Shown piece by piece: positions 1 through 48,480 of a DNA stretch of 64,000 nucleotides. Source of the DNA: Undaria pinnatifida (Eukaryota > Sar > Phaeophyceae > Laminariales > Alariaceae); the NCBI GenBank assembly GCA_012845835.1, contig JABAKD010000024.1:62699-126698 (forward strand), in the 5' to 3' direction. Under the pieces are notes generated by a model. It searched no databases, had not been told where the DNA came from, and saw only the letters and a list, made by a program, of their open reading frames with translations. A program made the position numbers and the translations under genes. Within the stretch, counting starts at the first letter, position 1; each line of letters starts with the position of its first letter.

Positions 1-25
1 TACTGACCTGCGGGGATACGCGTAT

Positions 26-454
26 ATGGCAAAATATACCGACCATCACAGCAAGAAAAAAAGAGGCTCCTTCGTCCAAGAGCCGCCTTCCGTTCGACCA
101 ACGGCAGACTCGGCCACTTCTCAAGTAAGAGCGCGTCAGCTTGCCCTACAACGTCAAGGATCTCCGAAACAGCAGTTCGATTCCGTTTCGCAGTACACCA
201 GCAGGGCTCTCGAAATGCACAAAATAAACCGTGCGGTATCTATTTCGGTACCCAGCACCTACGCGCAACCTATGGCCTCACCACAAGCGGGAGAATGCAA
301 ACCTTCAGCGACCTCTGCTCGAAGATTTACGACTTCAGCACGGAGACCTCCTTCTAAGCTCCAACACCCTGCAGTCGCACCTACAGCTCCGGCTCGCAAG
401 ACCACCTTTGACCATCGTGACTGCCTTGTAAATTATCTCAGGCAACCTCCATGA
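26..454 (+). CDS. Possible exon or small protein of unknown function
   Basis: An open frame of 142 codons starts at an ATG at 26 and ends in TGA before a more AT-rich stretch. The frame is also open upstream to the window edge, so this may be the last exon of a gene that begins outside the window. The predicted protein is rich in Ser, Thr, Pro, Lys and Arg, with no membrane segment or motif I recognise. Base composition is more balanced than in the AT-rich sequence that follows, which is the main reason for listing it. I see no clear splice acceptor. It could equally be a chance frame. Confidence 0.3.
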   Translation: MAKYTDHHSKKKRGSFVQEPPSVRPTADSATSQVRARQLALQRQGSPKQQFDSVSQYTSRALEMHKINRAVSISVPSTYAQPMASPQAGECKPSATSARRFTTSARRPPSKLQHPAVAPTAPARKTTFDHRDCLVNYLRQPP

Positions 455-2145
455 TCGAAAAAATCATTGCTTTATGGAGTTCCATACAAGATTGCAGCGT
501 TTCATAAGTGGGAACAAATTAAGCCAGATTTGTTTTTCTGGCGTGTACGGTGTACGACCGAATTCTACCGTGTGCTGTTGGACTTTTCAATCACCGACAA
601 GCCGCGATATACCGAGGACAGAGAAGCACGTTACGCACTGATCAATTAGGCAATGTGCCGACAAACGATTCGTCTATTACAATTCATCTACAATACTGCA
701 ATGGACCGGAGAAGAACATGGCCGACGTACACATCGCATCACAACCTTTCTCCCCGTCTCTGTTAAATCAAGCGCTTCTTCAGCCTTCTTTTACCTTCTA
801 TACAAATGAGCTCCATCAACAGCTACCCGAACGACACTCACGTCAACAATTGGGGTCAGGCGCTGGAAATGTGGGTGCGGTTGAAATTCATACTTAAGTA
901 GAGAATATTTCCAAGTGCAGCAGTTACTTTTCAACCATATAGTTACAACTGTTCGCCAGTTACGTATTATCAGTAAAGGTGGAACTATGGGTCGTATGAA
1001 CGTACGTCAACGATCGTACAGCAATAAGCCAAGTTCTACCGGAAAATGCGTACGAGTAAATATTCCAGCATTAAGAAGTAAAGGCTCACAAAGACTGCCT
1101 ATCTTATGCTCTTCAGCGTACAATTAGTACCAGACAGTTTATCATTATGTGCGTATCCTAGGATCATATTGGAATGGCGTGGTTAACTTACAGCAGCGAC
1201 CTTTGTTTCCTGTTTGTTTTTTCTTTTTCGGGATATAGCTCGATGATGGACTATGATTACACCCATCCTAATCTATTACAAACTATCAGTATTCGTAGTT
1301 CTACGAGTATTTGTGTCTTCATTTTATTTTTTTGCGGAAGTACGAAAATAAATTAAACAAACAATTGAGTAGTGAGAAAATGCATTATTTTGTCGTGATG
1401 GACACTGGTCCACAATTTTCTTTATTTGTCTAGTATTGTTTATCTATTCGGTACGTTTCAGGAAGCGTGTTTAAAGCTCAGTAGACGTACCTTTGCGTTT
1501 TATCTTATAGGGTATTTATCGCTGGTAATTACACCAAGCGTAATTTAATACGCATCTTTCCTTGTAAGGTTTTATTTTTTTGTAAATGTGTGAATAACAT
1601 GGATTCATCCATATTGCCGCGGTTGATACACTCGACTGAATATGAGCCCCATTTGTTTTTGATTATTTTACGATTTTATCTTCCAAGTATGAGGCTTCTA
1701 TAGCAATCTCATTTTGCATTATATGGAGGCGTGTTGAGAGTATGGACCTTGGATTGAAATCTCAGTTAATGCGCAGACCGTTCGCACGAATAAGATATGC
1801 AGCTGAATCTTGCGTTGAATCTTATGTTGGATCGTCAATGGGACCTAAATGCAAAAATAAATTTGAGTATGTGAAGGTTGTCCCGTTGTCCCAACATTCT
1901 ACCGGACTACGGGCATTGTTCCGTGATGATCAAGTGGCGATGCAACCCACAATGATCACTCTCCCAGCTCTCCCTTTTCTCCCTTCTTTCCCCTCTTCTT
2001 TATCTCTCTTTGGCCTCGAGCGCCCTTTCCAAACTATCCCTTTTCTTACTTATCACAAGTGATTTCGACAGACAATTTGGTGCCACCTCTGCATCTCCTC
2101 GCATAGAAGACAGAGCCTCCACATAACCATTGTTGTTCGCAGGCT
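455..2145. other. No supported gene
   Basis: Mostly AT-rich sequence with short open frames that show no motif, no recognisable protein and no consistent splice sites. Runs of T and short A tracts occur around 1200-1700. Nothing here supports a gene, RNA or named repeat. Confidence 0.5.
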
Positions 2146-2414
2146 ATTCACAATCCCCCCTCCCCCCTTCCGCCCTCCCCCCTCCGGCCATCCTTCCTCT
2201 CCCCCTCGCCCCCCCCCCCCCGTCCCCAGCTCGCCCCTCCCCCCCCCCCCCAGCTCGCCCCTCCCCCCCTCCCCCCTACCCCCTCCCGCCCTCCCCCCCT
2301 CCCCTCTACCCCATCCCCCCGCTCCCCCCCTCCCCCCCTCCCCCCTACCCCCTCCCCCCCTCCCCCCCTCCCCCCTACCCCATCCCCCCGCTCCCCCCCT
2401 CCCCCCCTCCCCCC
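2146..2414 (-). repeat. C-rich (minus-strand G-rich) simple repeat at the 3' end of the LINE
   Basis: The plus strand is almost pure C with interspersed T, built on units such as CCCCCCTCC and CCCCTACC. On the minus strand this becomes a GGGGGAGG-type tract that follows directly on the C-terminal codons of the LINE reverse transcriptase at about 2418. Many LINEs end in a simple repeat, so this is probably the element's 3' tail, expanded by slippage. The proline-rich open frame on the plus strand is a by-product of composition. Confidence 0.7.
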
Positions 2415-2417
2415 GGC

Positions 2418-4450
2418 CAGTTTGAGATGTCGACGGTGGATGGCGCTTTTACAGCCTTTGCGCGTCGCTCTGCGGCTTTGCGTCTCTCCGTTTCATGCCA
2501 ATTCCGCATGGACAACTCGGCTATCTCCTGTACTCGTCGATACCATCTGACGGCCTTCTGAGCAGCGCTTCGCCACCCTTGTTGTTTCATTCCAAAGCCT
2601 GACATATCATCCTTCAGATTATCCATCCAGCCCTTCTCTTGCCCCCCTGAGTAGCCCTTACCCCCACCAAGCTCTCCAAACATCACCCTCTGTGGCTGAC
2701 GCTCATCTTACGTACGTGATAGAAATCCTGCGAACAGTATCTTCCGTTTGCGCACTATTGCCTCTATGCTCTCGGAAGCTGTATAGGCAAGCGCGTCGGT
2801 GTACGATAGGGTGTGGTCGTCGCGTTTCTGTTTCCGACATCCGAGGCATCCGAGGAGCATGGAGTGGTGAACTCGTCGTGGTCTGTCATAGTCAGGCTTG
2901 CTTCGGCTCCACGTTATGTAACCGTAAAACAGTGTCTCAACCACCTCATTTTTCAGAAACCGCACCTGCAACCGTAAGCGCACAGCCGGGCGATAATAGA
3001 TCTCCATCTTGTACCGCTGGAAGCACGCCCAGGCCCTCTGAAGACGCCGCATTATTTCAATGCTAGGGTCTCTGTCTGCGGTGATAGCCCCGCTCGAGTA
3101 CACAAAATCGATTGTTTGTTTGTATACCTGGCGGGCTGCATTTATTGTAAACGATACCTGCCCTCCGCTTTGGTTTGCAGGCACATCATATCTGGTTTCG
3201 CCTCGGAGACCGTAAGCCCGAATGCTGAGCACGCAGTCACGATCACCGCCATCATCCTCTCATACTCTCTGATGATTGCGATACCATGCCCGCATCGTTT
3301 GCGTGCAGCATTTCCCACAATCTCCGCACCTCCTCCCCCTCCTTCACCCTCAGTCCGTCTATTTTTCATGTGCGTGAAGTGCCCTCCTTCTCGCCTTTCT
3401 CCATTCGTTGGAGCTGCACCATGTTGTCCGTGGTGGCTGCATCAGCAAGGAAGCGTTTCTCGGCCACCTGCAATACCGCCGGAAAAATCATGTTGAACAG
3501 CAGTGGCGCGAGCACGCATCTTTGCGTGAGACCTTGCCCCACGTCGAACTTATCCGAGAACTCTCCATCATCCAACCGCACGCATGCGTGCATCCCGTCG
3601 TGCAACTGGCGGATGACGGCGAGAATTCTCGGTTGCACGTCAAGCGAGCAAGGACATCACCTTGAAGGGTTCTGTCGACGGAGTCGTATGCTTTGGTGAG
3701 GTCGACAAAGCACAAGTACGAGAGGGTGTCCTTCTTCCGCGCCAGTCCCTGTAGTCGTCGTTCTACGAACATCATGTCATCTGTCGAGCGTTGGGGTCTG
3801 AACTAACACTGTTCTTCCGGCAGAATGTTCTCGCGTTCGCAATAGTCACTCAAGCGAGCCGCGATGACTTTAAGGAGTATTTTGCCGGCGTGAGCCACGA
3901 GGGAGATGCTACAACAATTGCCACATTCGGTCCGATCATTCTTCTTGTGCAGCACCTTAATCGTTGCATCTTTCCATTGCTGCAGCACTCCACCTCCCCT
4001 CCTCACAGCGACGACGATATCGCGGGACGTTCCGACAGTGTTCAATACTCCTTCGTCGGCCAAAACCTTCAAGAGCTCGGCTGGGAGACTATCGAGCCTT
4101 ACCGCCTTTCGGTTCGCCAACGCACGGCTTGCCTCCTCTACTTCGTACCTAGACGGGATATCGTCCAGTGGTCTGCACGGGGGCCACTGCTTAAGCTCAC
4201 CCGAAATGCTCGGGTCAAGGGTCATCGACTTGGTGGTAAGCAGTTTGTGAAACCACTTCACCCACCGCTCGCGGATGAGGGTATCATCCCGCAACAATCG
4301 ACCTTCCTCGTCTTTGATGTACTGCGAATTAAACGTCCTCTTCCCTTCCGCATCCATCCCCTTGAAGTGTTTGTAGAAGCTAAATTGAGCACCTTCTTGG
4401 ATACACCCTTCGAGTTGGCTGACGAAATATTCGAAGAACTTCGGTATCCC
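2418..4450 (-). pseudogene. Decayed LINE (non-LTR) reverse transcriptase
   Basis: Segments in several minus-strand frames give the successive parts of a non-LTR reverse transcriptase. From 4450 to 3803 lies the N-terminal RT region, with [17 protein letters not shown] and the [16 protein letters not shown] stretch. At 3775-3640 is [15 protein letters not shown], the first catalytic-aspartate motif. At 3640-3400 come the [18 protein letters not shown] region and the following helix. The YADD box position (3294-3305) reads HAND. From 3232 to 2418 is the C-terminal region (FVYSSGAITADRD; MLLGCLGCRKQKRDDHTLSY), interrupted by an in-frame TAA at 2708-2710. Frame changes separate most blocks, so the copy is dead. 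No endonuclease domain is visible upstream, so the copy is 5'-truncated. The C-terminal style matches LINE proteins I recall from brown algae. Confidence 0.88.
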
Positions 4451-4555
4451 GACGCAAACGGCTCGAGAAAAACGCCCGACACCAACGGCAGTTACCGTCG
4501 GTAGCCGACATGCGGAACAGGGTACTAGTGCAGGGGGAAGTGTACGTGACCACGA

Positions 4556-4763
4556 GTAATAGCCAGACACGCGGCGTTCTGGTGATCGCAGTTAATGGGC
4601 AAGGGTGTGCCGATCTCGGCAAACGAGTATCACACCCGGTGCATTCACCACGAAACGCCAGGTACCACAAACGGTAGCGCGCAAGGGTGTGCAGATTTCG
4701 GCCAACGAGCATTAAACCCGGTGAGAGCGGATCGAGAAAGTAGCCAGGCACCACAAACGGTCG
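4556..4763. repeat. Degenerate tandem repeat, about 84 bp period
   Basis: Two clear copies and part of a third. Landmarks are GCAAGGGTGTGC at 4600 and again at 4683, and ACCACAAACGGT at 4665 and 4751. The copies have diverged, and no protein is supported on either strand. It lies just beyond the truncated 5' end of the LINE. Confidence 0.6.
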
Positions 4764-4952
4764 TGATTGACCACGGGTCCGCGGTTAACACGCAGAGGTA
4801 TATAGGGGCCTCAGCGAGGCACCACCCACGATTTATGCGGCTACAAGAAACCGGCCAGACACTGAAACCATTGGTAATCGACGGCGAGGGTTTATGCACG
4901 GTAATACGTTGCAGCGGTGCGAAAAAAAATAACAAGTAACCAAAGGTATTAT

Positions 4953-5136
4953 CTTGTTTGTTTGTTTGTTTGTTTGTTTGTTTGTTTGTTTGTTTGTTTG
5001 TTTGTTTGTTTGTTTGTTTGTTTGTTTGTTTGTTTGTTTGTTTGTTTGTTTGTTTGTTTGTTTGTTTGTTTGTTTGTTTGTTTGTTTGTTTGTTTGTTTG
5101 TTTGTTTGTTTGTTTGTTTGTTTGTTTGTTTGTTTG
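4953..5136. repeat. (TTTG)n microsatellite, about 46 uninterrupted units
   Basis: A pure tetranucleotide array of about 184 bp. It creates long artificial frames with a repeated Cys-Leu-Phe-Val pattern, which are not genes. Perfect arrays this long are usually young and length-variable. Confidence 0.97.
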
Positions 5137-5280
5137 CTCGTTTGTTAGTTTGATTGTTTGTTTGTTCGTTCGTTTGTTCGTTCGTTTGCTTGTTTGTTTG
5201 CTTGCTTGTTTGTGGGTTTGTTTTGCTTTGTTTTGTTTTGTTTTGTTTTGTTTTGTTTTGTTTTGTTTTGTTTTGTATTC
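5137..5280. repeat. Interrupted TTTG array passing into (TTTTG)n
   Basis: The perfect tetranucleotide array decays through variants such as TTCG and TTGC to about 5216. It then becomes a pentanucleotide TTTTG array up to about 5275. The change of unit length without a break suggests stepwise slippage from one founder tract. Confidence 0.93.
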
Positions 5281-6596
5281 TGTTCTTTTTTGATTGGGGT
5301 CCTTTTAATGACCGCCGGTGTATGACTTAATTTTATGAACAGAACCCATGTGTGACGCAGGAAAATTCCAGGGATTTGCGGAATATTTACTATGATTCAG
5401 CAGGTACTGTCGGTGAAAAGGGACACGCGTCAGCTGCCGATGTCACGTTACTGACAGCCGAAACAATATTCTGCCAACACGAGGCTCGTAACGCATCACT
5501 GCTTGGGCGCAAGAACACTTGCGGTAAGAGCCAGGACACCAGCAACCCGGCATTTGCGGCAGACAGCAAAACAACACCGATTGGCCAAAGGGGCCGTAGG
5601 AGCGTCGAACTTAGGCAACGGCCCTCATCTACTATAAAATATGCTACCGACAACCGACATTTTGTAAGGTATAAATCCATGGTATGCGCCATGCATTATA
5701 ACTCATGTGGAGTTATCAAAGTGTTTGTTATACCGCGCCGGTATAAGTCGAGGAAAGCACCATGCCTCAGCGTGAGACTCCGGGGTTCTTGGGCAGCAGG
5801 TGATCGGCGGGGTCGCTGTCTACACAGGCAGACATTTGATTAGATGGGTCCGGCGGGCCACCCGTTGCGCGACACGACTTTGTCATTCTTAGTGAAGAGG
5901 GGTCAGCGTCTACATAACTTTCACCCACCCAATACGGTATATCGGTAGATAACCGGTCGAACCGAGATAGCTCCCCGAAAAGCCGAGATGCATTTTGAGG
6001 GAAAAGGACGAACCTTGAGCAAATATATATGCGCGAACCCACTCATGGTGCCCATCATGCGCGATATCTCGACGACCAGCGGCGCCCGCCAGCTTTTTAG
6101 TTGATGTGGAAAATCACATGGCCTAGCTGGGGCACCTGCGAGCGGCGAGGTGCCCGACCACGTTCATATGCTCTCCATTCTGTAGGAGGCTCTTGTGAGC
6201 AAGTCGTTGGGGCGTACGGCAGCAGCATTGACCCCAAAGAGCGGAGGGTGGAAGACGGAGACGTTAGCCGCGCGCCGCATCTGGTCGACCAAGTGCACAC
6301 AGCCCCCAACGGTGGAACAGACAACAGGGCTACACCTGCGCGACCGCAGGTGGGTTGCCACTGCCGTCGGCCGTTCAATTAGTTCCACCGCGGGCACGTC
6401 GAATTACATTTAAAATATACCAGCACAGAAGGACGTGTTGGGTGAGACAATGCCGCGCCATGGTATGTGGCAAACGACAGCCAAAAGAACACAAGGAAGT
6501 TTGGGGAGAACCACAGACCAGGGCAGGAGGTGTTATTCAACCCAGTACTTACATTGAATGGTCGGCGGCAACGTAAGAAAATGCTGTAGTAGTTCT
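5281..6596. other. No supported gene
   Basis: Mixed-composition sequence with short overlapping frames on both strands and no recognisable protein. I looked here for the missing 3' exons of the lipoxygenase (iron-ligand histidine motifs on the minus strand) and did not find them. Confidence 0.45.
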
Positions 6597-8000
6597 TCAA
6601 TTGTTGCTATTGTCTCCTCCTTCTTGATACGTGGTTTTACATTCCAGCCTTAAACTAGCCGCATCCAAGCTCCATCCCCAGTCCATCGTTGGGTCTGTCA
6701 TCTCCTCCCTCTGTGCGCTTTCTCGTTTCCTGGAGGTCTCCAAGCTGGAGTTAGAAAAACCCTTCCTCCAAATAGTGGTCCGTGCAGTCACAAAGTCGAC
6801 TTGCAGCCGACATCTTTCATCACCCCCTTCTACGCGACGGGCCCACCCCATGACACTATCTGAGAGCTGGTCGACAAATGTGCAGCCATATACCCCCAGA
6901 CGCAGAAATATTTCTTCCGCTAAAGCAGCAACTGTTTCACTCCATTCGTCAAAGGACACATATTTCGGATAAACGGAGTGTTGACTCTTGCGTGCTTTGG
7001 AGGAAGAGGCAACTGATGCATCATCAGCAGCATTTCTTCCTCGCAGACGTACCCGCACTTGAGAGTCAGCATGGGTAACGTCCAGCACGGTGGAAACGTC
7101 CGTATAGTCCTTTTTTGGAGGGCCTTTAGAACCTCCTCTCCTAACGACTCTGGCCATCCGCAGATTCCGGGCCGTAGTAGACGACTCGCCGCTCTCGAAC
7201 TCACGTGGAATTCCCAACCGTTGACCGGAGATCGCGTGGAAAAGCACTTAGTGAAGGTTTACGTACGCCCCTGCTCTGGGGCACGTGCATGTGTAGCTGG
7301 TGGCTATGTTGACTGCCTTTCAGCAGGGGTAATTAACTACCAAATTTCCTCGATCTCCACACAACGCCTCCCCAAGCCCGAAACCGCTTCTGCGAGTATC
7401 ACATCGAGTGAGTCCGTTCGGGTCGCTCGAAGACATGCCTCGGCTCCTGCCTCTTGTAGACTTCTATAGAGAGCCATAGAGAAGACTTTCGTCTCGCCCC
7501 TCCCCAGCGGATTATCAGGTCCAGGGGGGCGTGCCGCCTTCTGTAGCTCCTCCAGCAAAGACGTTTGTGCATGTTGACGGCTCTTGTTCGCCAGGCTGCC
7601 CAACGTTTGTTGAGGTTTCCGGGAATGGGTTTACAGCGTCCTACGGATCTTGACGTTTGGTGTCTGGAGGCCTCGGTGCCAGGTACCCCTCGGCACCCAG
7701 CCTCTCCTTCAACCAAGATTTCCGGGAAGGTGCCCGCCATTGCTTCCTTCGTCATCCCCCATGTACCTCTAAATTACCACAAACTGATCCCTAACTGAGC
7801 AATGATGCTCAATTCCGGAAGAACCCTCCACATTCTCCCTCTCGACGGGAGTGTGAAGTCTGCTACAGCTGCCGGCAACATCCCACCCGCGCCACCAATT
7901 GAGGCAAATATTGGCCTCGCCTCTGTCGACGGCAGCCGTAACCCTTTCACTCCCGCAGGAAATGGTGCTTGGGCCTGCTGGTAGGGATTAAGGGGAGGCT
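6597..8000 (-). pseudogene. Decayed protein-coding remnant, probably transposon-derived, unknown family
   Basis: Coding-like minus-strand blocks in different frames follow one another. The first (about 8000-7790) is rich in Pro, Gln and Ala, including NPYQQAQAPFPAGV. It runs in the same frame, past a TAA, into a second block that starts with Met at 7755. A third block (7603-7337) contains DNPLGRGETKVFSMALYRSL and a helical C-terminus. A fourth (7247-6597) is a 216-codon frame, charged and helical, with YPKYVSFDEWSETVAALAEE. The Pro/Gln-rich start followed by a helical region would suit a Gag-like protein, but I do not recognise the family. The order and strand fit one broken reading frame. 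It lies where the 3' half of the lipoxygenase should be, which suggests an insertion. Confidence 0.4.
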
Positions 8001-8155
8001 GACTATCCGGGTGCCCTTACTAAAACTACGACATTGTTTGCACCAATACTGCTACCTCCTACATCGAAGCACGCCTACACAAACGAAAATGCACTCTGTA
8101 TGAGCATCGGCAGATTTTCATCTATGCGGGAACGGTGGTTTGGCGTCTGGCTTAC

Positions 8156-11100
8156 CTCGAGCAGCTCATGGTCGACGACGAACAACTTGCCGGCAGCCAG
8201 GAGTGAGTCCACATTGGCTTTGAGTCCCTGAAAAAAAAGAGTATGTTCATGAAGGAAAAGGAAACGAACGGGCCGAACACGTTTACGGCAAAACATTCAC
8301 AAGTAGAGAACGGGGGGATCGGGACAGAGCGGAAATGCAAGTTTGCTTTACGATTGAAGCAACAAACCTATTGGGCAATCAGAACTTAATGCTTCCATGC
8401 GATGTATGTATAGTTTCGTACAGAGGCCATTAAAATCTGAGGTGGTCGCTGACAAGATTCAAAGTAGCACCTCACCTGGAACAAACACACACACCTCCCC
8501 ACACGACTAATGCCACTAGTTTTGCGTCGATATGCCGTTTTCAAATTGTCAACCACCAATAAATGTCGCATGGTAACATAGAGGTACCGAAGTTTTCTCT
8601 GATCGAAAGGTCTCCTCGACTGAAGAACTACCTAATATCGTTGGTCATACCAAACCTCGATGTACATATATGCCACGGATTGTTTCATTAGGGTGCACTC
8701 GCGTTTGCACCAAGTTGTGTTATGCGTTATAGTCTAGGTATAGAGCCCCTCAACCTGGGAGGATGACGAAAACATGGTATTGTGAATACTTTTGTAGTAC
8801 CGGATCATGTGTTCTAGAATCCGCACGAATTTCTTTCTGCTCGTCGAAATCCCTGCTGTTGACCACAACAATCGTTTGATGCACCACATCTTGGTAGTGG
8901 TACTTCTTCAGGTAAAGATTCGGTGGGAGAGCCCGTCTCTGCTTGAGATGGACCTGCTCTCTCACCTCGTAGGCAGGGTCAGCATCCAGCACCGTCAGCT
9001 TGGCGCGCGTGGCGGCTGATGCTTTCTTGATCACGACGCAGTTAGCACCTGCTTTTCAAACGTTCGTATACAACCATCAAACACCAACAATTCACTTACA
9101 TAATTCGCAAACATCAACGGACAGAGTAGGCTAAGCGGGAGATGGGTGCATAGAGGTTGTTTACCGTTGTTGTTGAGCGACTGTCGCTTTCATCACTGTG
9201 CAGTCGCACTCGAACGTAGCAATCGCGTAAGATAGGAATATAAATACAAAGACTACGACTTGGTTGTTTACTTTCCTGCCCATCGTTTTGTGACACTTCC
9301 AAGTAGATTAAGCCAAACCCTATGGGTGAAGTTCTGATGGAGTTGAGACAGACATGTCACAGGTGTATACAGCACGATGAAACGTCAACCTCCGTCCCGC
9401 CGTCGTACTCACCCTGTAGGCGGAGCCTTGCAAACGTGTCATCATCTTCCCAGTCGACTATTGCGTTGGGGGCCTTGATAGGGAAGGCGTGGAGGTCCTC
9501 GTAGGAATCGATGTCGGTGGCCTGGCAACCAGGCGGACATGCAATAAGAAGGCGCAAATCTTGAACCATAAAACGTATTTGATTGAGTGATTGTTGTCAT
9601 TAAAAAGCGAAGCAGCCGAACACACCGCACGCTGCAGTCGAGCAAGCACCATGGACGCCACTAACTTCCAAAAAAACGTCACAGGTGTCAATGGTGACAG
9701 CAAGCCCGAAGCGGTAGCCTAAACAACATCGCCACAAATAACCGCGAACAACTTGACCCACCAAAGAAAACTAGAAAATATATACTCCGATTCACCCAGT
9801 CACCAGTACCTACCCTCTCGAGGGCAACGTTCTCCTTGAAGAGGTCTTGTATGCCTAGGAAAAAGTTATTGGCGTTTTCGGGGCTGGACAAAGCCTCGAC
9901 GATCTCGCCAAAACCAATCGTCCCTCTGGGGTGTTTTTACGGCGGGAACAGCAGTAACGTAGCGATGCGAGGGAGGAAGTTAACGTATGACGCATACAGT
10001 TGTGACCAGTATCGAGGTATATTGTAACACTATGTATTATACTGCTGCATCTAGTATATTCCAGAAAGGCCACCCTAACCTTGTTCTATCACGGCACGCT
10101 AATCGACTTCCGACCAATCGGGTGAGGGAGTCACTCGATCGACGGCAATTAATGACTCATACTACAAGAGGAGTCGCTCGATATACCGGTGTGCACGAAA
10201 GGCAGGATGCCACCGCCAACCTTCTCCCTTCGCGCAACTGCCACTCTCTTAAAGAAAGGAGTTGTGCAAAGCATTATTCTCTATTGTCCGCATATGTCCA
10301 GACAGGGGACGCTGCATGACTTCTTGTTTGCGGCAGATATTCCGCAAACTAAAAAATAACTGTAGAAAATGGAATGTGTAATGTCTACCTAAGCTACACA
10401 CAGTCGGGTTCGATGCACGCCGGCTCCTTCCCCTTTCGCAGTGGGCGGAGAAATAGCAGCTTCAAGAGACGAATGCTGCGACAGAGATAGCACGTTAAGA
10501 CCAAGATTCTTCTGGCTGACAGCGCTACTGAACAAACATACTACAGTACCCAATATTGTTGGAATATCATGTACGAGGTTTTTCAGTGATAGTCGTTACA
10601 TGTGTAGGCCCTGGGATTGCTATCGGGTTACGCGTACACTTTTTAAGAACTCGTCTTTTTCGCAATAGAGAGCAGTAGATCCCCTCAGGCGAGGATCTCA
10701 GAAGAGCTCAAAAACATTGGGTATACCCCTACCGTTGTGTGTCTATAAACATTTAGAATACTACACTTGTTAGCGGGGGGTGGACAGTGGGCGACCTTGA
10801 AGACTTGTATACAGCGTGTATGTCAAAACCATACGGGAGTATGACGTTGGATCGAACAAGAAACGACGGAGCTCAATAATGCCGATAATATGTTGCTGCA
10901 TATCATGACACCTAACAAGCACAGCAATGGAGGAAGGCTGAGATTAGGAGGGCAATCCAAAATATAGGAACCTTTATACTCCATTTGTAGACCGCACCCA
11001 TATCTAGATAATTATTTTACCTGAGCCGGCATTCCTTTCCATATTTTGTGTCTCTAACCGTTCATGCTAACGCTGGGGCTGGAGGGACACACCTTACGGT

Positions 11101-12698
11101 TCCCAACAAGATTTGAAGGCTCGCTGCAGTGACTTGCAGGAACCACAGAACGTTGGGTGTTTCCTCCGTGGGAAGACCACTGTTTGGACTACCCTTCAGG
11201 TATGGTGTGCCCACGGGGATACCCTTTTCGTCACCGATAACAATGCAGTAAAACCGCAAGCGGCCGCATAAGGGTCAAGTCGAAAGTGCGGTAGAAACAC
11301 AAATCCAACGGCCGGCGTAGAGGAGAGGAGAACGACGAGGGGAAGAGGTGGAACGGTCCTGAGTTACAGTTGAAGCGCCTCATCGTGGTTGACCGTACAG
11401 CACACATTGCGAATACATGATGAGGCACAACGGCAAGTGCGGCACGAGATCGAGAGCGATGTATACCAGCAACCATAGGGTGACTATCTAGATCGGACTG
11501 TGCCTGGTGATGCCACAGTATCCCGTTCTACACGGCGAGTTGCGTATGAACAATACCGTAGCGCATAAATGTCCATCCTTAAATTAGTTCTTACCGTGGT
11601 GTCCCATTCGTATATCTTCCGCGCGTCTTCCAACTGGTCCTTGCGGCCACGGTTGTCGGCTTTCTCATGCTGCGGAATACAGGTTTCGGTTCCGCGTACA
11701 GCGGCTGCTTGCCGGGGGGGGAATACACAGTTGAATTGCAACGAAGCAAACAATGGTGTGAAATTTAAACACGCGCATGACCATATTTAAAAACAACATT
11801 AAGTTTAAGTACGTCAGCTGTGAGGTCGACCAATTCAAGAGTTAATACCCATCGTTGCAAGCCGCGTGGTACTCCGGTCGCACGTTAGTACAGCATGTAT
11901 CACGTATAATCTAATCGAACGTCGAACAAATAGCAGAGATCTTTCATATTATCGACAACACTAAAGCAACATTCTCCCTTGTGTTTCTCATGGCCGACAA
12001 CAAAAACAAAACAGTAAAACGCCTCGTCTGCGGCAGTAAGCGCGGCCCAAATGCTTGGGCGTGAACGGCTTAAGGGACACCGATCCTGCAAAAAAACTAC
12101 GAGCGCAGGAACTGGAAGATACGAGAGCGTTATCAGTGCACCGACTATCCGGTTGGTATGTGGAGGCACCGGAACGGGTTGTCTATGCACAAGGGGACAC
12201 AAACTACGATACACAGCTTACGGTTAGGGCAGTCGCAGCTTTATTTCAGATTTGGTGCGTGCCCCCGCATCTCGCCTGTAACCCCCCTCCGACCAAAACC
12301 GCCGCCACCAGGATTCTTCCTTCCGAGCGAATTTTCTTCATGTTTGTACGTATCATGTATGCATGGGTACGCTTTATCGTGTGTAGCACGGTGATTATCC
12401 ACCGAAGTCTTCCGGCGGAAGGCTCAACGGAGTTACCGTCGACACGCACGCAGGACGGTACCACTAAGCACGGACGTGGTTACTCACGGTTAAAAATGTC
12501 CAAGATATTCGGGAGTTCAAGTCCGGAAAGGGGAACCACGGCCTTTCCACGGCTCGAGGGTGCCCGCGGCGTCATTGGCGTCTTTGGTGCCGACGGGATA
12601 GCGACGCTCTTTCCGACGTGGGCTGGGGCGATAAAGCCCGAGGCTGCCGAACAGATGGCTATGGCAACCATCATCTTCATGACCTTGGGGCTGCTCAT
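8156..12698 (-). CDS. Plastid-targeted lipoxygenase, 5' part only (seven exons)
   Basis: Lipoxygenases are non-haem iron enzymes that add O2 to polyunsaturated fatty acids; in algae they lead to oxylipins. By eye the exons are 12698-12488, 11704-11595, 11223-11093, 9925-9814, 9521-9413, 9048-8966 and 8227-8156, all with GT/AG introns. The phases at successive junctions (1,0,2,0,1,0) keep one frame open for 276 codons. Exon 1 encodes a bipartite plastid-targeting peptide. Exon 3 has the E-x-P-x-x-x-W motif (TEETPNVLWFLQ). Exon 5 has YEDLHAFPI and then WEDDDTFARLRLQG, the family's W-x-x-D-x-x-F-x-x-x-R-x-x-G block. Exon 6 has VVIKKAS and VLDADP; exon 7 has SLLAAGKLFVVDHELLE, the GRLFxxDY-type block. 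The catalytic part, with the His, Asn and terminal Ile iron ligands, is absent downstream, where a transposon-like remnant lies. The gene is therefore probably truncated and non-functional, unless the remaining exons were too diverged for me to see. Confidence 0.78.
12488..12698 (-). other. Lipoxygenase exon 1: bipartite plastid-targeting presequence
   Basis: The start codon is at 12698 and the exon ends at a CC|GTGAGT donor in phase 1. After a short basic start comes a hydrophobic core (MMVAIAICSAASGF), with the expected cleavage site just before Phe. The Ser-Ala-Ser-Gly-Phe context is the ASAFAP-type motif that directs heterokont proteins through the outer plastid membranes. It is followed by a Pro-, Ser- and Arg-rich transit-like stretch. 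This is one of the best clues to a secondary red plastid in the host. Confidence 0.72.
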
Positions 12699-12724
12699 CT
12701 GCAGATATGACCGATGAGGTTGTC

Positions 12725-13844: not shown

Positions 13845-14125
13845 ATTCTCGGTACTGGTATGGATGGCGTACTGAACTTACCGACGTGTCCGGTACCGGT
13901 ATTGACGCCGCACCGCAGTTATCGAAGGGTCCGGTACCGGTATTGGAGGTGTACAGAACTTACCGAAGTGTCCGGCACCGGTACGAAAGTATGTACTGGT
14001 ACCGCTGGTACCGGTATTGATGTCGTGCGGAACTTACCGAAATGTCCTGTACCGGTATTGACGTCGTACCGAACTTACCGGAGCGTCCGGTACCGGTACG
14101 ACAGTCTGTACAGGTACCGGTACCG
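13845..14125. repeat. Minisatellite, about 42-bp unit with GTACCGGTAC core (left block)
   Basis: Repeated units contain GTCCGGTACCGGTATTG followed by CGTACCGAACTTACCGA-type sequence, roughly 42 bp apart. The core is palindromic, so both strands read alike and produce artificial Tyr/Arg-rich frames. A second block of the same unit occupies 14870-15320. Confidence 0.85.
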
Positions 14126-14869: not shown

Positions 14870-15320
14870 AAACGTACCGTAGAGTCCGGTACCGGGTTGA
14901 TGTTGTGCCAATCTTGCCGAAGTATCCGGTACCGGTATCGATGTTGTACCGATACCGGTACCAACTGCGGTACGTACGTGCATACCGGTACTGGCTGCGG
15001 TACATACGTGCATGCCGGTACCGCCGGTACCGGTATTGATGTCGTACCGAACTTACTAAAGTGTCCGGTACCGGTATTGAGGTCGTACCGAGCTTACCGA
15101 AGTGTCCGGTACCGGTACGAAAGTCTGTACCGGCACCGCCAGTATCGGTATTGATGTCGTACCGAGCTAACCGAAGTTTCCGGTACCGGTACTGATGTCG
15201 CACCGAACTTACCGGAGTTACCGGTACTGGTATTGATGCTGTTTCGAACTCACAGAAGTGTCCGGTACGGGTAATACCGGCGGTGAATATCGGCGGTACG
15301 CCTCGGTACGTACCATACCG
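14870..15320. repeat. Minisatellite, about 42-bp unit with GTACCGGTAC core (right block)
   Basis: Same unit as at 13845-14125, with many copies of TCCGGTACCGGTATTGA and CGTACCGAGCTTACCGA variants in direct orientation. The units decay towards 15320. The palindromic core could form cruciforms. Confidence 0.85.
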
Positions 15321-40710: not shown

Positions 40711-41500
40711 TTACGGGGAACCGGATTGTGAGTTTCCGTTCCTCCTACCTTTCAGGATTCCACGTTCGTTGAGCTCCTCCCAATCTCCGTCTGCATACCG
40801 AACTCGCCAGTACGGTGACTTGTAGTCGAAGACCTTTGAAAGGTGACGCTTCTTGTTTCCTTCAGCGTCCGCGAATTCCCTCCAGATCACGGTCCCCACG
40901 GGGTGTTGTTTCAACGCTTGTTCGCGGTCGATCCCATCTCTTTTCTTCCGCGTTAGCGTCGAAGTTGGTCTTGCCCGGCACTCCGCTCCGTGATACGTTT
41001 CCCGCAGCGCATGGAAAACGTCCAGCTGTAAAGGGTTAAAGCTGTCTCGTGCCTCCTCTTCGGACAGCCACTGCGACTCTGTGCCATCCACGAATCGTCC
41101 CTTGTGTCGCCACTTCCAAGCGTTGCTTTGACCCATCACAGCGTTTCTGTCTATTAGGGTATACATAGGCGACGCTACAATCGACGGCTCCGCCAGTCCG
41201 AAGTCAACTCCCCATGCCAGGTGAGCAAATTCGTTTCCGAAGTCGTGACGGAGGTCGTCCGGACGTAAGTGGAACATATTGATATTCGATGCTGACGCCC
41301 GTCGTCGGCGAATCCCTGGTCCATTCATCGTGACAATGTAGCTGAGTCCTGGCAAGACAACTTCAGTCACCTCCCAAGGTCCGGCCCAGTGCTCGTGGGG
41401 TAGTTTATGATGTATCCCTTCCCGTGCCATCACAGACTCCGCCTCCTTCACCAGCACCTTATCTCCGACAACAACACGGGTTCCTACCGAGGTCCGACCG
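40711..41500 (-). pseudogene. Integrase C-terminal region with a chromo/Tudor-like tail domain
   Basis: From GTRVVVGDKVLVKEAE the frame runs through GPWEVTEVVLPGLSYIV, a GPY/F-like module, then a linker (HLRPDDLRHDFGNEFAHLAW). It ends in a compact domain (GTVIWREF; VFDYKSPYWRVRYADGDWEE). That ending resembles chromo- or Tudor-type folds, which in Ty3-like elements can bind histone tails and guide integration. The segment is one frame off from the integrase core upstream. Its last 248 codons are intact. Confidence 0.7.
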
Positions 41501-41543
41501 ATTCAGCATTCCGACACTCACGACGTTTCTGCCTGTCTTCATG

Positions 41544-41894
41544 TTATTTCGATAGAGCCGTCCGTACATCCCGTACCTCCTTGTACGCTTGATATTTGTC
41601 GGCTACGTAACTGTGCATCCCGCCTCTGAAATCACCACCATCTATCTCAGGGTGCGTAGCATCAAGTTGCGTGCGTGCATCACGACCGAAGAACAGACGG
41701 AAGGGAGTTGGCTTCCCCGGCAGGCGCATGTCCGGCGTGGTGCGATGGATCCACAGTGCCGGTTGTACGTATTCGTCCCATCTGCGAGGCCAGGTCTTGC
41801 ACAGTTCTCCTAGTGCTTCGTGTAGCCACCCCCCACCGTCCCCTGTGCACGCGGATGATCGGCAGGCCCATAGGCGATGGTCACGTTCAACCAC
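41544..41894 (-). pseudogene. Integrase core, C-terminal part
   Basis: Reads GGWLHEALGELCKTWPRRWD, then ALWIHRTTPDMRLPGKPTPF and RLFFGRDARTQ, typical of the end of an rve-type core. It is in a different frame from the preceding core segment, joined near 41835. It ends at an in-frame TAA at 41544-41546, after which homology continues (HEDRQKRRE). Confidence 0.8.
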
Positions 41895-42388
41895 TTACAT
41901 AAGTGTTGCATCACCTCTGCCGTGAACTCGGATCCCGGATCACTGCGAACATACAGCGGTAACCAAAAAAAAAGCATCACTTCGAGCAGTTTCCTCGCTA
42001 CTCCGATTGCTTTTTTCGTAGGCAGTGGAAAGGCGAACAAGAACTTGCTGGCTTTGTCGACTGCTACCAGTAGAACTTTGTTGCCTGCGTCTGACTTCAC
42101 CTCCATGTCCTGGATGTCGACTTCGAGTAATTCCCCGGGTCGTAGAAACCTCGACGGTAGCATGGCAACCCGTTGACTCGCTGACCGCTTGCGACGTCTG
42201 CACCCACACGAGAGGGCGTAGTCTCTAACGTCCTTGATGAGGGTGGGCCAGCAGTACCGATGACTAATCAAGGCTGTAGTTCTCGCCGTCCCCGGATGCC
42301 CATAGATGCTGCGCGCCAGCGCTATAACCCCTGAACGAGAGATCGGGGAACTGCAAGTCGTGGGATCTTTCCCCGAGGTGCTACCCAC
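41810..42388 (-). pseudogene. Integrase: zinc-binding domain and catalytic core
   Basis: The His-His-Cys-Cys domain is visible (GHPG; SHRYCWPTL; SCGC). In the core, LLEVDIQDME carries the first catalytic Asp and YVRSDPGSEF the second. The third acidic residue should be in the HPRAQGTVER-type motif. Here ADHPRAQGTV runs straight into GGG, with a frame change, so the glutamate codon is gone. The enzyme joins element DNA to the host chromosome; this copy could not. Confidence 0.87.
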
Positions 42389-42846
42389 AAGAGGCCGTTA
42401 TCATCCATCCCATATTCGCCACCTCCTGATCCTCGGTTTCCCGCTTCCTGGAGTTCTTTCCCAATCTTGCCAAGTACCATATCTTCGCACTGCCTCTGTG
42501 TCAGCTGTGGCAAATCCTGGAGAATAGCTGTTACCCTTTCCAACATGGATGGCTCTGACCGCTGGGGTCCCTCGGCCTCTTTCCCTGATCCGCTTGAACG
42601 GCTGCTGGTGTCCTTTGGTGACTCCTCCAACGGATCACGTTGCCGTTTCGGTCTCGGGATGGGCTTTCTCTGTCCCCTGCGTTTGCGTGGGCGATCAACT
42701 TCCATTGGTAGTTCAGTAGTAGTAACCGTTTGCGCCGTTGCATTCTCCATCTCCTCCTCCTCAGGTAACGGCGGTTCTGCCTCCCATACAACCTCCGGTT
42801 CCTGGAAAGTGGCCTTTGCCTGCGATCTCGTGACCGCTCTTGTCAC
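42322..42846 (-). pseudogene. Linker between RNase H and integrase
   Basis: A 174-codon frame starting MTRAVTRSQAKATFQEPEVV, with a charged, Pro/Arg-rich linker (DRPRKRRGQRKPIPRPKRQ) and then LTQRQCEDMVLGKIGKEL. The final part, DNGLLWVAPRGKIPRLAVPR, leads into the integrase zinc domain, which continues one frame over after about 42340. The basic stretch could serve as a nuclear-localisation signal. The function of the long linker is otherwise unknown. Confidence 0.65.
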
Positions 42847-42942
42847 CTCATAGGCTTTTGATGGTGCGAGTTAATTTTCAAGCCTCCTGCAGGCGTCACC
42901 GACCACCACGTCTGGTTTCACCTCTCTCAACATGGTTAGGCA

Positions 42943-44256
42943 TTACGGCGACCCTGTTGTCACCCCAAGTAACTTCGCACCTTTGTCCAGTCCGTTTGCT
43001 CTGATGCATTCCAGTGCTCTCCAGTCCTTGTCTACTGCTCCTCTGACCGCCAGCAACCCCTCTGATGCAAGGATGCTGCCTCCCCCCCCACAGTCGAGCA
43101 TGACCACCACTGGAAGCTCCGGTGCGATGACAAGTTTGGCCTGTTGAGTATCTGCCTTTGATGGGTCTGCGGGTGTGAGTGCGACGGCTGCAAGTACTGT
43201 AAGACTTTGAGTACTAGATCCGTCCACATCTTCTACTCCTACGGTTTCGAGGTGTACGCCGTCGAGCACTGGCCCCTGTGGCCCTTTGTAAACGTTTGGC
43301 AACGACTCGTCTCCTGGAAAAGAGTCGTCGAAATCTTCGATCACGATGCTCTTGTTCGGTAACCGCGACATGACGTCTGGGAGCTGATGTTGTGTCCCCG
43401 GCCTCCACTTCAAGGTTATGTCGTGCTCCATCCACCACAGAGCCCAGCGGTGGTATTTCGGTGTGAGAGATTGGCTTTTGAAGAGCCAAGTCAACGCCGA
43501 ACAGTCCGTGATGAGCGTGAACGGTCGTCCCCAAAGATAGGGTTGGAATTTGCTTACTGCCCACATGACCGCCATGCATTCACGGTCCGTTGCTGACCTT
43601 TTGAAGTCTCCTCTCGACCACCTTTTGCTGCCATACGCGATCACCTTTTCCACTTCTTCGATGCATTGTGTTTGCACCGCTCCTGCTCCTATTTCACTGG
43701 CATCGATGGACAGCGAGAACGGTTCTGTCCACACCGGCAGGGCTAGGATTGGAGGTGACGTCAAAGCTTCGATAAGCGCATCAAAAGCTTCGTTCTGCTC
43801 TTTTCCCCATGGGACTTTATCTTTCTTCGCTCTCTTGGTTCTGAACCTTGGATCTCTCAGCAAGTAGGAAATGGGCGCCACCACTGTGCTATACTGAGGT
43901 ACGGATTGTCGTAAGTATCCTGTCATGCCCAGCATCACTCGCACTTCCTCCACCGTGTTCGGCCTGGAAAGCTGCGTGATAGCATCGATCTTGCTCGGGG
44001 CTGGCCTGGTACCAAGTCTATCTACGATCATGCCGACGAACTCCATGACCGACTGACAGAAATGCGATTTTTGAAGATTTACGGTTAATCGTCCTTGCCT
44101 TAGACACTCTAACGTTTCTCGCAGCAGTCCCCATTGACCTTCAAGGCTTTTCGACGGGATGGCGATGTTGTCCAACCAGTTCTTGATTCCCCTATCCTTG
44201 ACGGTCAACAGCCGCCCGCCATCGTAGGTGGCAAACGCCGAAGGCACTGTCTTCAA
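42943..44256 (-). pseudogene. Reverse transcriptase (C-terminal part) and RNase H
   Basis: A 437-codon open segment. It starts MKTVPSAFATY, and the catalytic RT box at 44167-44178 reads WLDN where Y/F-x-D-D is usual. The thumb-side sequence TVNLQKSHFCQSVMEFVG follows. RNase H begins at FSLSIDASEIGAGAVQTQ and continues with TDRECMAVMWA, LITDCSALTWL and HQLPDVMSRLP, giving the expected Asp-Glu-Asp-Asp set. A long tail rich in Val, Asp and Ser follows before the linker. RT copies the RNA genome to DNA, and RNase H removes the RNA. Upstream, the RT continues in another frame. Confidence 0.9.
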
Positions 44257-45015
44257 CCCGAAGCCGCAGCGAACGTGTTCGTACAGCTTTCCGTCAGCGT
44301 CTCGAAATGCCGTCAGGTGTCGATCATCCTCATGATCTCGAGCTGTAAGAATCCTGAAGCTAGATCGATGCTAGAGAAATACTTCGACCCTTCGATCTCA
44401 TCCATAATATGCTGCAAGTCTCCGAGTCCACCACTCTGTGATTTGAGAAGCGCGTTGATACCTCGAAAATCCTGTACAACCCGCACTGTCCCATCTTTCT
44501 TGCGAACCGTCGAACAATTAGCGGCCCACTCGGAAGTTCATTCCCGAATGGATCCATTCTTCAGGAGTTTCACCACCTCAGTCTGAATCATCTCGCGCTG
44601 TTCCGGGCTGTAGTGTCGAATGGGCGCCACGTATGGCTTGACGTTGGGATCTTTGAGCCCCAGTCGCATGGGCACTCTTGGGGTTGACCGAGAACACGTC
44701 GATGTACTCGTTGAGAATGCTCATCAATGTGTACTTTTCGCTCGGACTGAGCTGTCCGAAGTTGGCCTCTCCCAGGTCCACCTTGGGGGCTTCGCTCGTA
44801 ATCTCTGCGATTTCACCCCCTTTGTTGCATTGCTCCGGTGGTCTCCCTCTGTCTTTCTTTTTTATCCCGTCGTCCTGTTTGGGGCGTGTCGGTTCTTCCA
44901 ACACCGGGTTCATGAGTGACTTCATGCGTTCCCGATCGAAATTGTTAACAGCGTAAACAGTGGCAATCACCAGCCACCCCTGGATCTTCATACTATTCTG
45001 GGTAACATTCGACAA
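44257..45015 (-). pseudogene. Reverse transcriptase, N-terminal part, broken
   Basis: The frame continues from the protease past a TAG at 45016 into KYTLMSILNEYIDVFSVNPK. Near 44670 a one-base shift leads to LKDPNVKPYVAPIRHYSPEQ, then a TGA after LKNGSIRE. It continues through VRKKDGTVRVVQDFRGIN (RT block 2) and KYFSSIDLASGFLQLEI, which carries the first catalytic Asp. Another shift near 44325 joins RHLTAFRDADGKLYEHVRCG. At least three lesions lie in this stretch. Confidence 0.85.
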
Positions 45016-45796
45016 CTAACATTGAAGTGGTATACCTGGGAACCACCACTGTGCCACCCTTAGCACTCCTAGATCCACTCCTAGTTTAAGATCATAGCGG
45101 TTAGTTGGCTTTACCACTACGAGCTGCTGCACTTGAGGCTGAGGGCCTTTGACAAAAGTGTCTACCTGGATACTGGTACCACATGGAACCTCTACGTCTT
45201 TTGCAATGCGTAGTTTCCAGTGCAGAGTGCCTTCGTCCTCCCAAACAGAGTTTCCTAACTCCATAATCCCCGCCGGGATCTTCGGTCCCTCCAATTCTTC
45301 CGGTTCTTGCTCGTCCGTTGACGGTTTCACCGCGCAATAGTGGTCCCATTCGGCACACATCGCTCCTGCCGCGGCCTCTCCGACCTCCTTCGGGGCGAAT
45401 GGTACCCACGCTGAGGATGGTGTCGGACGGAAACCCTCCTCACCATCGAAGCTGATGATACTTCGATTGTCCTTCATGAACGCGGCTCCAAGCACCATCG
45501 CATACGGAAGTCCTTTCACCACCCTGAACTTCACACGGAAGATTTGGTCGACCGGTGCAAAGACTAGTGGTAGCATGCACGAGCCTACCACTTCCATCGG
45601 GGGTACGGCGCTGTTCTTTGGGTTCGCTGCGCGGAGTAGGCCGTCTCCCGTTGGGTTTATCAGCGACTTTCCCCTAACCAGATCACGTTTTTCAATGGGT
45701 TCGATGAACTGCCGTGACACGTAGTTTGCTCCACCCGCCCCACTATCCACCAGCACCGCGATCGGAAGTCGCCGGCTCGAGCTCGCTGCATGCTAC
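45016..45796 (-). pseudogene. Retropepsin-like aspartic protease
   Basis: The frame opens after a TAG at about 45797, and RRLPIAVLVDSGAGGANYVS carries the Asp-Ser-Gly catalytic triad. Later YAMVLGAAFMKDN fits the second hydrophobic-Gly element of the fold. The protein then runs through a long region (GNSVWEDEGTLHWKLRIAKD) to a TAG at 45016-45018, in frame with the RT. The protease cuts Gag-Pol into working parts. It follows gag after a frame change, so a frameshift or stop readthrough may have been used in the active parent. Confidence 0.85.
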
Positions 45797-45939
45797 AACG
45801 TTGCATGAACCCAAACCTGTGACGTTTTAGTTTGCAGTGCTCCCATGTTCGATTGGTGAGAGGAACTTTCTTTGACGTCAGTCACCTTCTCCCTATCTAC
45901 TGGTTTCCCCGGGCATGTTGGACTTCCCGGGGCGTGTCT

Positions 45940-47547
45940 TCATTTGGCTGTACCGTCTGTGTCGTCTGTCGGCGTTGGCGGCGGGATTGGCGGTCCTTTA
46001 CCAGCGAGATCATATGCAACAATCATGTCATACGACGTCTGGTTCGTGGGCTGTTTCGCATCCTTCTGCACCGTGTTTCTGTAAAAGCTGTAGGCAACAT
46101 CTCCCTCTTCGCGGGAGAAGCGACAAAGGAAAGGACAGTCCTGGCCTCGCGCGTGGAAGAAACAAATGTTGCGACTCCTCAGCGCTTCTTCAATTTCTGC
46201 TTTTGCGGCAGTGTTGAGCGGTAGAGGAAGATGGTGCTTCATTGTTCTCTGTTCGTCACCCTCTTTCTGCCACCGCCTTGATGCTGAGGTAGTCGTCTGG
46301 GGTGGCTTGGCTCCTTGCCGTCTCGACGACTTACTGGTGGGGACAAAGGGAGTTCCTCCCTTCACCGGCAACGATGCTGGTTGGGTAGAATACGCAGCCA
46401 ACCATTGCATAAGCTCATCCCTCATCTTGCTGTCGGCGACGTCCTCCTCATCCGACGGTTCCGATGCGAGTGCGGCAATGTCGAGCTTCGGTCGCTGTTC
46501 TCTCACCTCGTAACTTGACAAGGACCCATCACGTTTCCGGGAATTCTGCTTGTCTCTCCAGCTCGCTCCGCGCGTTTCAGGCCCTTGCAAGTTTTGGTTG
46601 TGTCCACCACGCATGTGCCCGACCCCGAAGATGTCCCCCATGCGGCTCTCATTCCTCGAGGACCGCCCGCCTGACGTGCCGCCAAACGCAGAAACCGAGG
46701 CTTGCGTGCCCCTGGCTTTCAACTTAGCAGGTACCTTCGGATCGCTGAAGTCGCTGCTTCGCATGTTAATTTTCTCAACAAATTTGTTGAAAATGTCACA
46801 CGCCTTTCTTCCCCTCAGCTCCATCGTGAGGTCGAGAAGCTGTCCCGTATTGACCGGATAGGCTCTGAGGCTCTCCCACTGTGCTTGTACGTCGTAGAGA
46901 GGCGCCTCGAACTTGTCGGTGTCGTGTGGGGCCACCATTCCGACGATTCGCCGACAAATCCCCATAGCATCCGTTTCCGACAGGACTTTCCAAAAGTAAT
47001 CCTCCTCTACCAAGAATGGTCGGTTCGGATCCACCATCGCTGCTCGCTTGTGTAACAGAACTACTCGCGCTGCCGCGGCCCAACCCTCCCCCGATTCCAC
47101 CTTCAGTCGTTCTAAGGTGTGCTGGGCTGCGACCTTCGATGTTTCTGAGATAGCCGTTTCCCTCAGAAAGACCCGCATCCACTCTGTGATGGTGAGATCC
47201 TTGGCCATCTTCACAACTTCGCGCCCATCGATCGTAGGTACGCGCGTACTGTGGTTGTTCGCGAAGGCCATCTTGACCATAGACGAGTCTGGTAGTAAGC
47301 GCATGAAAACCGCCACACGCAAGTCTGACAGTCCATCTCTCCGTGGGGATGCTGGAGCTGTACCATTCAGTTGGTCCTTGGGCATGGTCCAGTTTGGGTG
47401 TCTTGCGAATACCTTTGTTAACTCATCAAGAAATAACACGGGATCGTTCTTCATTGAGAGTCTTTTCACCGCTTCCGGCTGTAGCACCGACTCATAAGCG
47501 CTCTTCCGACCTTCCACCCCCATTTCCTTGACTAAGCGGTCGACCAT
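45940..47547 (-). CDS. gag: Gag-like protein of the LTR retrotransposon (intact C-terminal 535 codons)
   Basis: The longest open frame in the window. Its first Met at 47547 (MVDRLVKEMG) follows an in-frame TAA, and the original start lay upstream. The body is mostly helical (VKRLSMKNDPVLFLDELTKV; EAPLYDVQAQWESLRAYPVN), as in capsid proteins. A hydrophilic tail follows (EQRPKLDIAALASEPSDEED). Near the end, ICFFHARGQDCPFLCRFSR has Cys-x8-Cys-x3-Cys spacing, with Arg where a fourth zinc ligand (His) would be expected. Gag forms the particle around the RNA. It is followed by the protease in another frame. Confidence 0.85.
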   Translation of the reverse strand: MVDRLVKEMGVEGRKSAYESVLQPEAVKRLSMKNDPVLFLDELTKVFARHPNWTMPKDQLNGTAPASPRRDGLSDLRVAVFMRLLPDSSMVKMAFANNHSTRVPTIDGREVVKMAKDLTITEWMRVFLRETAISETSKVAAQHTLERLKVESGEGWAAAARVVLLHKRAAMVDPNRPFLVEEDYFWKVLSETDAMGICRRIVGMVAPHDTDKFEAPLYDVQAQWESLRAYPVNTGQLLDLTMELRGRKACDIFNKFVEKINMRSSDFSDPKVPAKLKARGTQASVSAFGGTSGGRSSRNESRMGDIFGVGHMRGGHNQNLQGPETRGASWRDKQNSRKRDGSLSSYEVREQRPKLDIAALASEPSDEEDVADSKMRDELMQWLAAYSTQPASLPVKGGTPFVPTSKSSRRQGAKPPQTTTSASRRWQKEGDEQRTMKHHLPLPLNTAAKAEIEEALRSRNICFFHARGQDCPFLCRFSREEGDVAYSFYRNTVQKDAKQPTNQTSYDMIVAYDLAGKGPPIPPPTPTDDTDGTAK

Positions 47548-47549
47548 GC

Positions 47550-48480
47550 GTTAAGCTTCTTTAGAGAATCCTCCTGTGATGTTGTATAACGGATTAAGTT
47601 GTGCGATCTGTAGTCCACCACTTCCTCGTGGGAAGGGAGGTTGTCCTCCCTAGGATCCCCACCCCTGCATCATGGGTTGACCACCCCACGGCACCTACCA
47701 TCCCTGAGCTCCAGCTGGTCCGATGAATCCTGATTGCTGTTGACCAGCAAACCCTGGCTGTTGTTGACTAGCAAACCCTGGCTGCTGTTGACCAGCAAAC
47801 CCTGGCTGATGTTGGCCAGCAAATCCTGGATGTTGTTGGCCAGCAACCCTTGCTGTTGTTGGCTAGCGTACCCTGGCTGTTGTTGCTGCGGCGGCCTTGG
47901 CGGCATCGGTGGCGCCATCGGAGGTCCTCCTCGCGATATAGGGTTCGGTGGTTGTTGGCTAGCATACCCTGGCTGTTGTTGCTGCGGCGGCCTTGGCGGC
48001 ATCAGTGGCGCTATCGGAGGTCCTCCTCGTGATATAGGGTTCGGTGGTGCTCCTCTTGGGGCTGCCTGTGGACCCCATCTTCCTCCGATTCCGAAGGGTG
48101 ACGGTAGGGAGGGAGGAGACATCTGATTGTACCCGCGTCCCGCTCCTACAGGATTTGCCGGTCCTGCTGCCCCTCGTCCTGCACCGCCCTGTGGGCCCCA
48201 TCCAACCTGGCCGTCCTGTGGTGAGCCTCCAGCCTGACCGGTCTGTGGCGGGCCACCCTGTGGTGAGCCTCCTCTCGGGTAAGGTGCACCAAAAGGTCCC
48301 CAAAAAGGTCCCCCTCTTCCTGCCACGTTATTTCCTCCAATCACTCCTCCCCCCCCATCCCCTCGGGTAGGGTGCACCAAAAGGTCCCCCTCTCCCTGCC
48401 ATGTTATTTCCTCCAATCACTCCTCCCCCCCTCCCCGGGACGCCGCCCGTTGCCCTCTGACGAAACCTCTCGCTTTGCTG
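47550..48480 (-). pseudogene. Gag N-terminal Pro/Gln/Gly-rich region, broken
   Basis: Repeats of GGVIGGNNMAGRGGPFGAPY-type and PQQQQPGYASQQ-type sequence, in two or three copies each, give a low-complexity disordered N-terminus. A one-base shift near 47850 moves the GFAGQQQP repeats into another frame. Going on to the intact Gag frame, three stops occur: TAG near 47695, TAG near 47650 and TAA near 47553. The first two could be Trp or Gln codons changed by single transitions. Confidence 0.75.

Follow-up and report, generated by a model that had tools for sequence, protein, structure and literature searches.

Exons and other features of the window

Seven exons were located on the minus strand (12698-8156) of the window, which is the whole stretch of 64,000 nucleotides analyzed here (C31:62699-126698). 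AG/GT was found at every boundary, the phases matched, and the joined exons summed to 276 codons, the same count as that given in a preliminary description of this DNA. The gene to which they belong is referred to as copy A, and its paralogs as copies B to E. The features are displayed below in window coordinates.

12488..12698, minus strand: exon 1, with the ATG, a hydrophobic stretch and an ASGFIAP-type presequence
11595..11704, minus strand: exon 2, with an aligned counterpart in copies B and C
11093..11223, minus strand: exon 3, with an aligned counterpart in copies B and C
9814..9925, minus strand: exon 4, with an aligned counterpart in copies B and C
9413..9521, minus strand: exon 5, whose product holds the start of PF00305 coverage (residue 206 on; W-D-D-F-L-G block)
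8966..9048, minus strand: exon 6, GANCVVIKK block; donor GTGAGA from 8965
8156..8227, minus strand: exon 7, AGKLFVVDHELL block; donor GTAAGC from 8155
1..8155, minus strand: the portion of intron 7 inside the window; the intron has a total length of 17,063 bp and extends beyond the left edge of the window by about 8.9 kb, as far as C31:53791
3494..3802, minus strand: decayed reverse transcriptase in intron 7 (RVT_1 at E=0.0011, short of the gathering cut-off), the one match among four scanned open stretches
40714..47550, minus strand: retrotransposon, five open frames scanned

The open frames bearing exons 1-7 were 70-101 codons long, so the earlier figure of about 75 codons at most was slightly off. 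At the six junctions aligned with those of exons 1-7 of copy A, copies B and C also carried AG and GT in the same phases, an agreement that was not wholly independent because the boundaries had been picked partly for being common to the three copies. The end of exon 6 at 8966 was preferred because the GT donor at 8965 is also present in copies B and C, where the aligned site reads GTAAGA and GTGAGA, respectively; the copies on C13 carried GTACGA (D) and GCAAGA (E). An extension of exon 6 to 8801, which would have given 331 codons, was rejected in view of this common donor. Over codons 1-276, copies A and B differed 50, 36 and 82 times at codon positions 1, 2 and 3, with significant enrichment of the third position (p=2.4e-5). 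A chance origin of the seven-exon pattern is very unlikely.

CAG stood directly before the lipoxygenase ATG (window 12699-12701) in all four copies examined (A, B, C and D). The ATG could adjoin the end of an intron in the 5'-UTR, or the CAG could merely have been inherited from a common ancestor. About 130 bases before C22:2908117, copy C carried a further stretch closely resembling the beginning of exon 1 (CAG, ATG and about 40 bases), which may have arisen by a small duplication. Upstream of the lipoxygenase ATG, at a distance of about 1.2-2.6 kb, lay two tandem arrays (window 13850-14119 and 14952-15273), made mostly of a 41-base repeat with CGGTACCGGTAT.

In the retrotransposon, which we take from its look to be Ty3/gypsy-like, the frame at 42946-44370 matched RT_RNaseH_2 (2.9e-27) and RT_RNaseH, and the frame at 41813-42397 matched the rve integrase (4.6e-11) and Integrase_H2C2; of the other three frames, two matched nothing and one had only a sub-threshold match. 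Within intron 7, the open stretches near the reverse transcriptase (2711-4591) were judged by eye to belong to the same element, and a TTGT array of about 77 copies lay at 4954-5273. A 216-codon open stretch of the same intron (6600-7247, minus strand) matched no Pfam family at E<=0.1. Phage records gave no match to the window, and neither the tRNA scan nor the Rfam scan at gathering threshold returned a hit in it.

The complete gene and its product

The seven exons constituted only the front part of a much longer gene. Copy A comprised 18 exons and 17 introns over 51,848 bp on the minus strand (C31:75396-23549), and its exons 8-18 (C31:53790-23549) lay to the left of the window. Exons of this part included the following.

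C31:53790-53680, minus strand: exon 8
C31:51571-51415, minus strand: exon 10, the iron-ligand exon
C31:41730-41605, minus strand: exon 15, the HAAVN exon
C31:23663-23549, minus strand: exon 18 (last), ending ...NIPQSINI and a stop

All 18 exons were in phase and encoded a product of 670 residues with one terminal stop. Thus the exons of the preliminary gene model were real, but they were the first 7 of 18: the model ended at the GTAAGC donor, and the other 11 exons were outside the window. No catalytic exon was found inside the window by tblastn with the open stretches of copy B, by motif patterns or by reading of frames. For the choice of boundaries, the AG and GT sites near each aligned core were listed and those common to copies A, B and C were taken. 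For exons 8 and 11, no donor just after the first aligned core suited all three copies, and the donor was therefore placed within that core. A candidate donor for exon 11 beyond the SAIDR stretch was discarded, as copy B has a stop there. Weak donors were present at exons 8 (GTAATT), 11 (GTCAGT) and 13 (GTACCC), and besides intron 7, introns 12 (7,122 bp) and 15 (16,516 bp) were long. Exact exon boundaries are therewith available for a gene with introns of up to 17 kb, which automatic annotation could split in two.

The full product matched the lipoxygenase family PF00305 with 160.5 bits (E 8.1e-47, residues 206-659; gathering cut-off 23.6), which supported the family assignment previously made from motif order. 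The only other Pfam match at E<=1 was ERK-JNK_inhib at chance level (E 0.18, below cut-off). The search of solved structures gave 55 distinct sequences with E<=0.001, every one of which bears the name of a lipoxygenase or a lipoxygenase fusion; the best match was 'Arachidonate 15-lipoxygenase' (5.7e-58), and 8x8f and human ALOX15B led the list. On the other hand, the profile search that had been proposed for the joined exons gave nothing: at E<=1, the 276 codons alone had no Pfam match, since their overlap with the PF00305 region is limited to residues 206-276 and the model stops before the catalytic part. Taken literally, the proposed refutation by lack of a profile match would have misled. 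The 331-codon version likewise matched no Pfam family at E<=10 and nothing in NCBIfam, and its single match among solved structures was a T-cell receptor chain (E 2.1).

All five expected iron ligands were present and invariant in copies A, B and C, namely H347, H352, H534, N538 and the C-terminal I670, as assigned by alignment. The motif His-X4-His-X4-His-X17-His-X8-His started from residue 347 of copy A and was found in all three built copies. Alanine occupied residue 395 of copy A, presumably the Coffa position, and the same position in all three copies. Alanine at the Coffa site goes with S-type products, and Ala395 therefore suggests S-type oxygenation.

Paralogs and selection

The PF00305 profile search of the genome (511,146,479 bp in 68 contigs) scored all 17 candidates and gave at least eight matches, all above the cut-off, while the control search over 14 well-known genomes gave none. 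All eight were matches to the iron-ligand exon (profile about 341-396), and two of them were located on C31, where they flanked the window on either side. Full models were made for three of the eight iron-ligand loci (A, B and C), and two further copies, D and E on C13, were read in part. Positions 22699-166698 of C31 and stretches of C13 and C22 were examined. Copy B was a complete tandem paralog (C31:151643-132684; 18,960 bp; 665 residues) starting 76 kb upstream of copy A, and copy C was located at C22:2908117-2931828 (23,712 bp; 685 residues). The protein identity to copy A was 79% for B and 63% for C. The three copies had the same 18 exons in the same phases, with equal lengths of exons 5-18, which was partly by construction because boundaries common to the three were taken. 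A complete, tandemly duplicated lipoxygenase pair is thereby added to a probable kelp genome.

Between copies A and B, dN/dS was 0.27 for the whole coding sequence; it reached 0.73 in the presequence (57 codons) and fell to 0.34 across codons 58-276 and to 0.19 in the remaining, catalytic half. The front half was thus under weaker constraint than the back half, since dN/dS was higher there. A search of prokaryote contigs based on the alignment of the three copies gave 76 pattern matches and no confirmed relative, a result that says little on prokaryote relatives because both patterns had been derived from segments that these copies conserve.

Integrity of the gene

These results indicated, with a probability of about 0.92 for the gene and the enzyme family together, that exons 1-7 form the 5' portion of a lipoxygenase gene of 18 exons, which appears to be intact and probably belongs to a brown alga. 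Some features speak against this reading: the two introns near 17 kb exceed the largest LOX intron given for S. japonica, several donors are weak, those of exons 8 and 11 lie inside the aligned core, and the front half is under the weaker constraint. The seven exons might instead be an orphan 5' fragment or pseudogene cut by transposon insertion, with catalytic exons 17-47 kb downstream that are never joined to it. The 17-kb gap with its reverse-transcriptase remains fits such a fragment, as does the lack of a profile match for the seven exons alone, and two short LOX genes of S. japonica were taken as probable pseudogenes in PMC5712309. However, all 18 exons were open and in phase, and enrichment of differences at codon position 3 was found between the copies in both halves of the gene. 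Furthermore, in the stretch of C31 searched (22699-166698), each of the two genes had one N-half and one C-half on the same strand, in alternation. An orphan fragment is accordingly considered very improbable. Similarly little credit is given to the idea that the transposon-bearing 17-kb intron 7 splits the gene in expression, exons 1-7 being transcribed alone; in that case, a short plastid protein without the catalytic centre would exist beside the full enzyme.

Predicted location and function

The most hydrophobic stretch of copy A was at residues 9-17 (best 9-residue Kyte-Doolittle mean 2.48) and was followed by ASGFIAP; the corresponding motif was ASGFVVP in copy B, AAAFVPP in copy C and AAGFIPR in copy D. 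This arrangement fits a stramenopile plastid presequence, and plastid targeting of the product is plausible and rather probable. A secreted or cytosolic lipoxygenase, an alternative concerning location only, is less likely, although published predictions speak for it: among the 18 brown algal LOXs in Table 1 of PMC5712309, six are listed with both a signal peptide and a plastid call, three with the signal peptide but no plastid call, and nine with neither. Yet the hydrophobic stretch is followed by ASGF in copies A and B, by AAAF in copy C and by AAGF in copy D, and both 666-residue LOXs of S. japonica are called plastid in the same table.

Most probably, the transcript would be spliced in vivo across all 17 introns. 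The N-terminal signal and the ASGFIAP-type transit sequence would then direct the product to the plastid via the ER-derived route, with loss of the presequence. There, the non-haem iron lipoxygenase would bind iron and oxygenate a polyunsaturated fatty acid to its hydroperoxide, with which oxylipin synthesis would start. The oxylipin pathways of brown algae are started by lipoxygenases, as established for the family.

Comparison with known lipoxygenases

The catalytic domain of copy A aligned with animal and bacterial lipoxygenases of solved structure (8x8f; human ALOX15B, 4nre/7laf; 4g32, which we take to be a Pseudomonas lipoxygenase) from residue ~189-205, and with 4g32 up to residue 670. 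HxxxxH and the H-A/S-A-V-N/S block were common to them, whereas about 190 N-terminal residues of copy A had little or no match.

The closest likeness by description was to the brown algal (prokaryote-like) LOX family, whose features are given here as described by Teng et al. (2017, PMC5712309). According to these authors, the N-terminal beta barrel that plant and animal LOXs carry is missing from brown algal LOXs. Seventeen introns are present in 10 of 18 brown algal LOX genes, which is the commonest published structure; the gene had been called hidden in the preliminary description, and this is true only for a bacterial-style search of open reading frames. The brown algal LOXs occur in tandem clusters and carry the His-X4-His-X4-His-X17-His-X8-His motif, and plastid predictions are recorded for three LOXs of S. 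japonica, one of E. siliculosus and two of C. okamuranus (PMC5712309). Copy A resembled this family, with members such as SJ21859 and SJ08276 of S. japonica, in its 17 introns and tandem clustering. It also shared with the LOXs of Teng et al. the similar exon lengths between copies, a comparable size (666-673 residues for members of that family) and the His-rich motif of 38 residues. A plastid location, plausible for copy A, is likewise predicted for some of those LOXs. The likeness was drawn from published descriptions, and the difference lay in the introns, those of copy A (17,063 and 16,516 bp) being longer than the largest LOX intron of S. japonica in that source (9,722 bp). No new kind of system is involved: copy A is an ordinary further copy of an already described brown algal LOX family, and its long introns are the sole unusual point.
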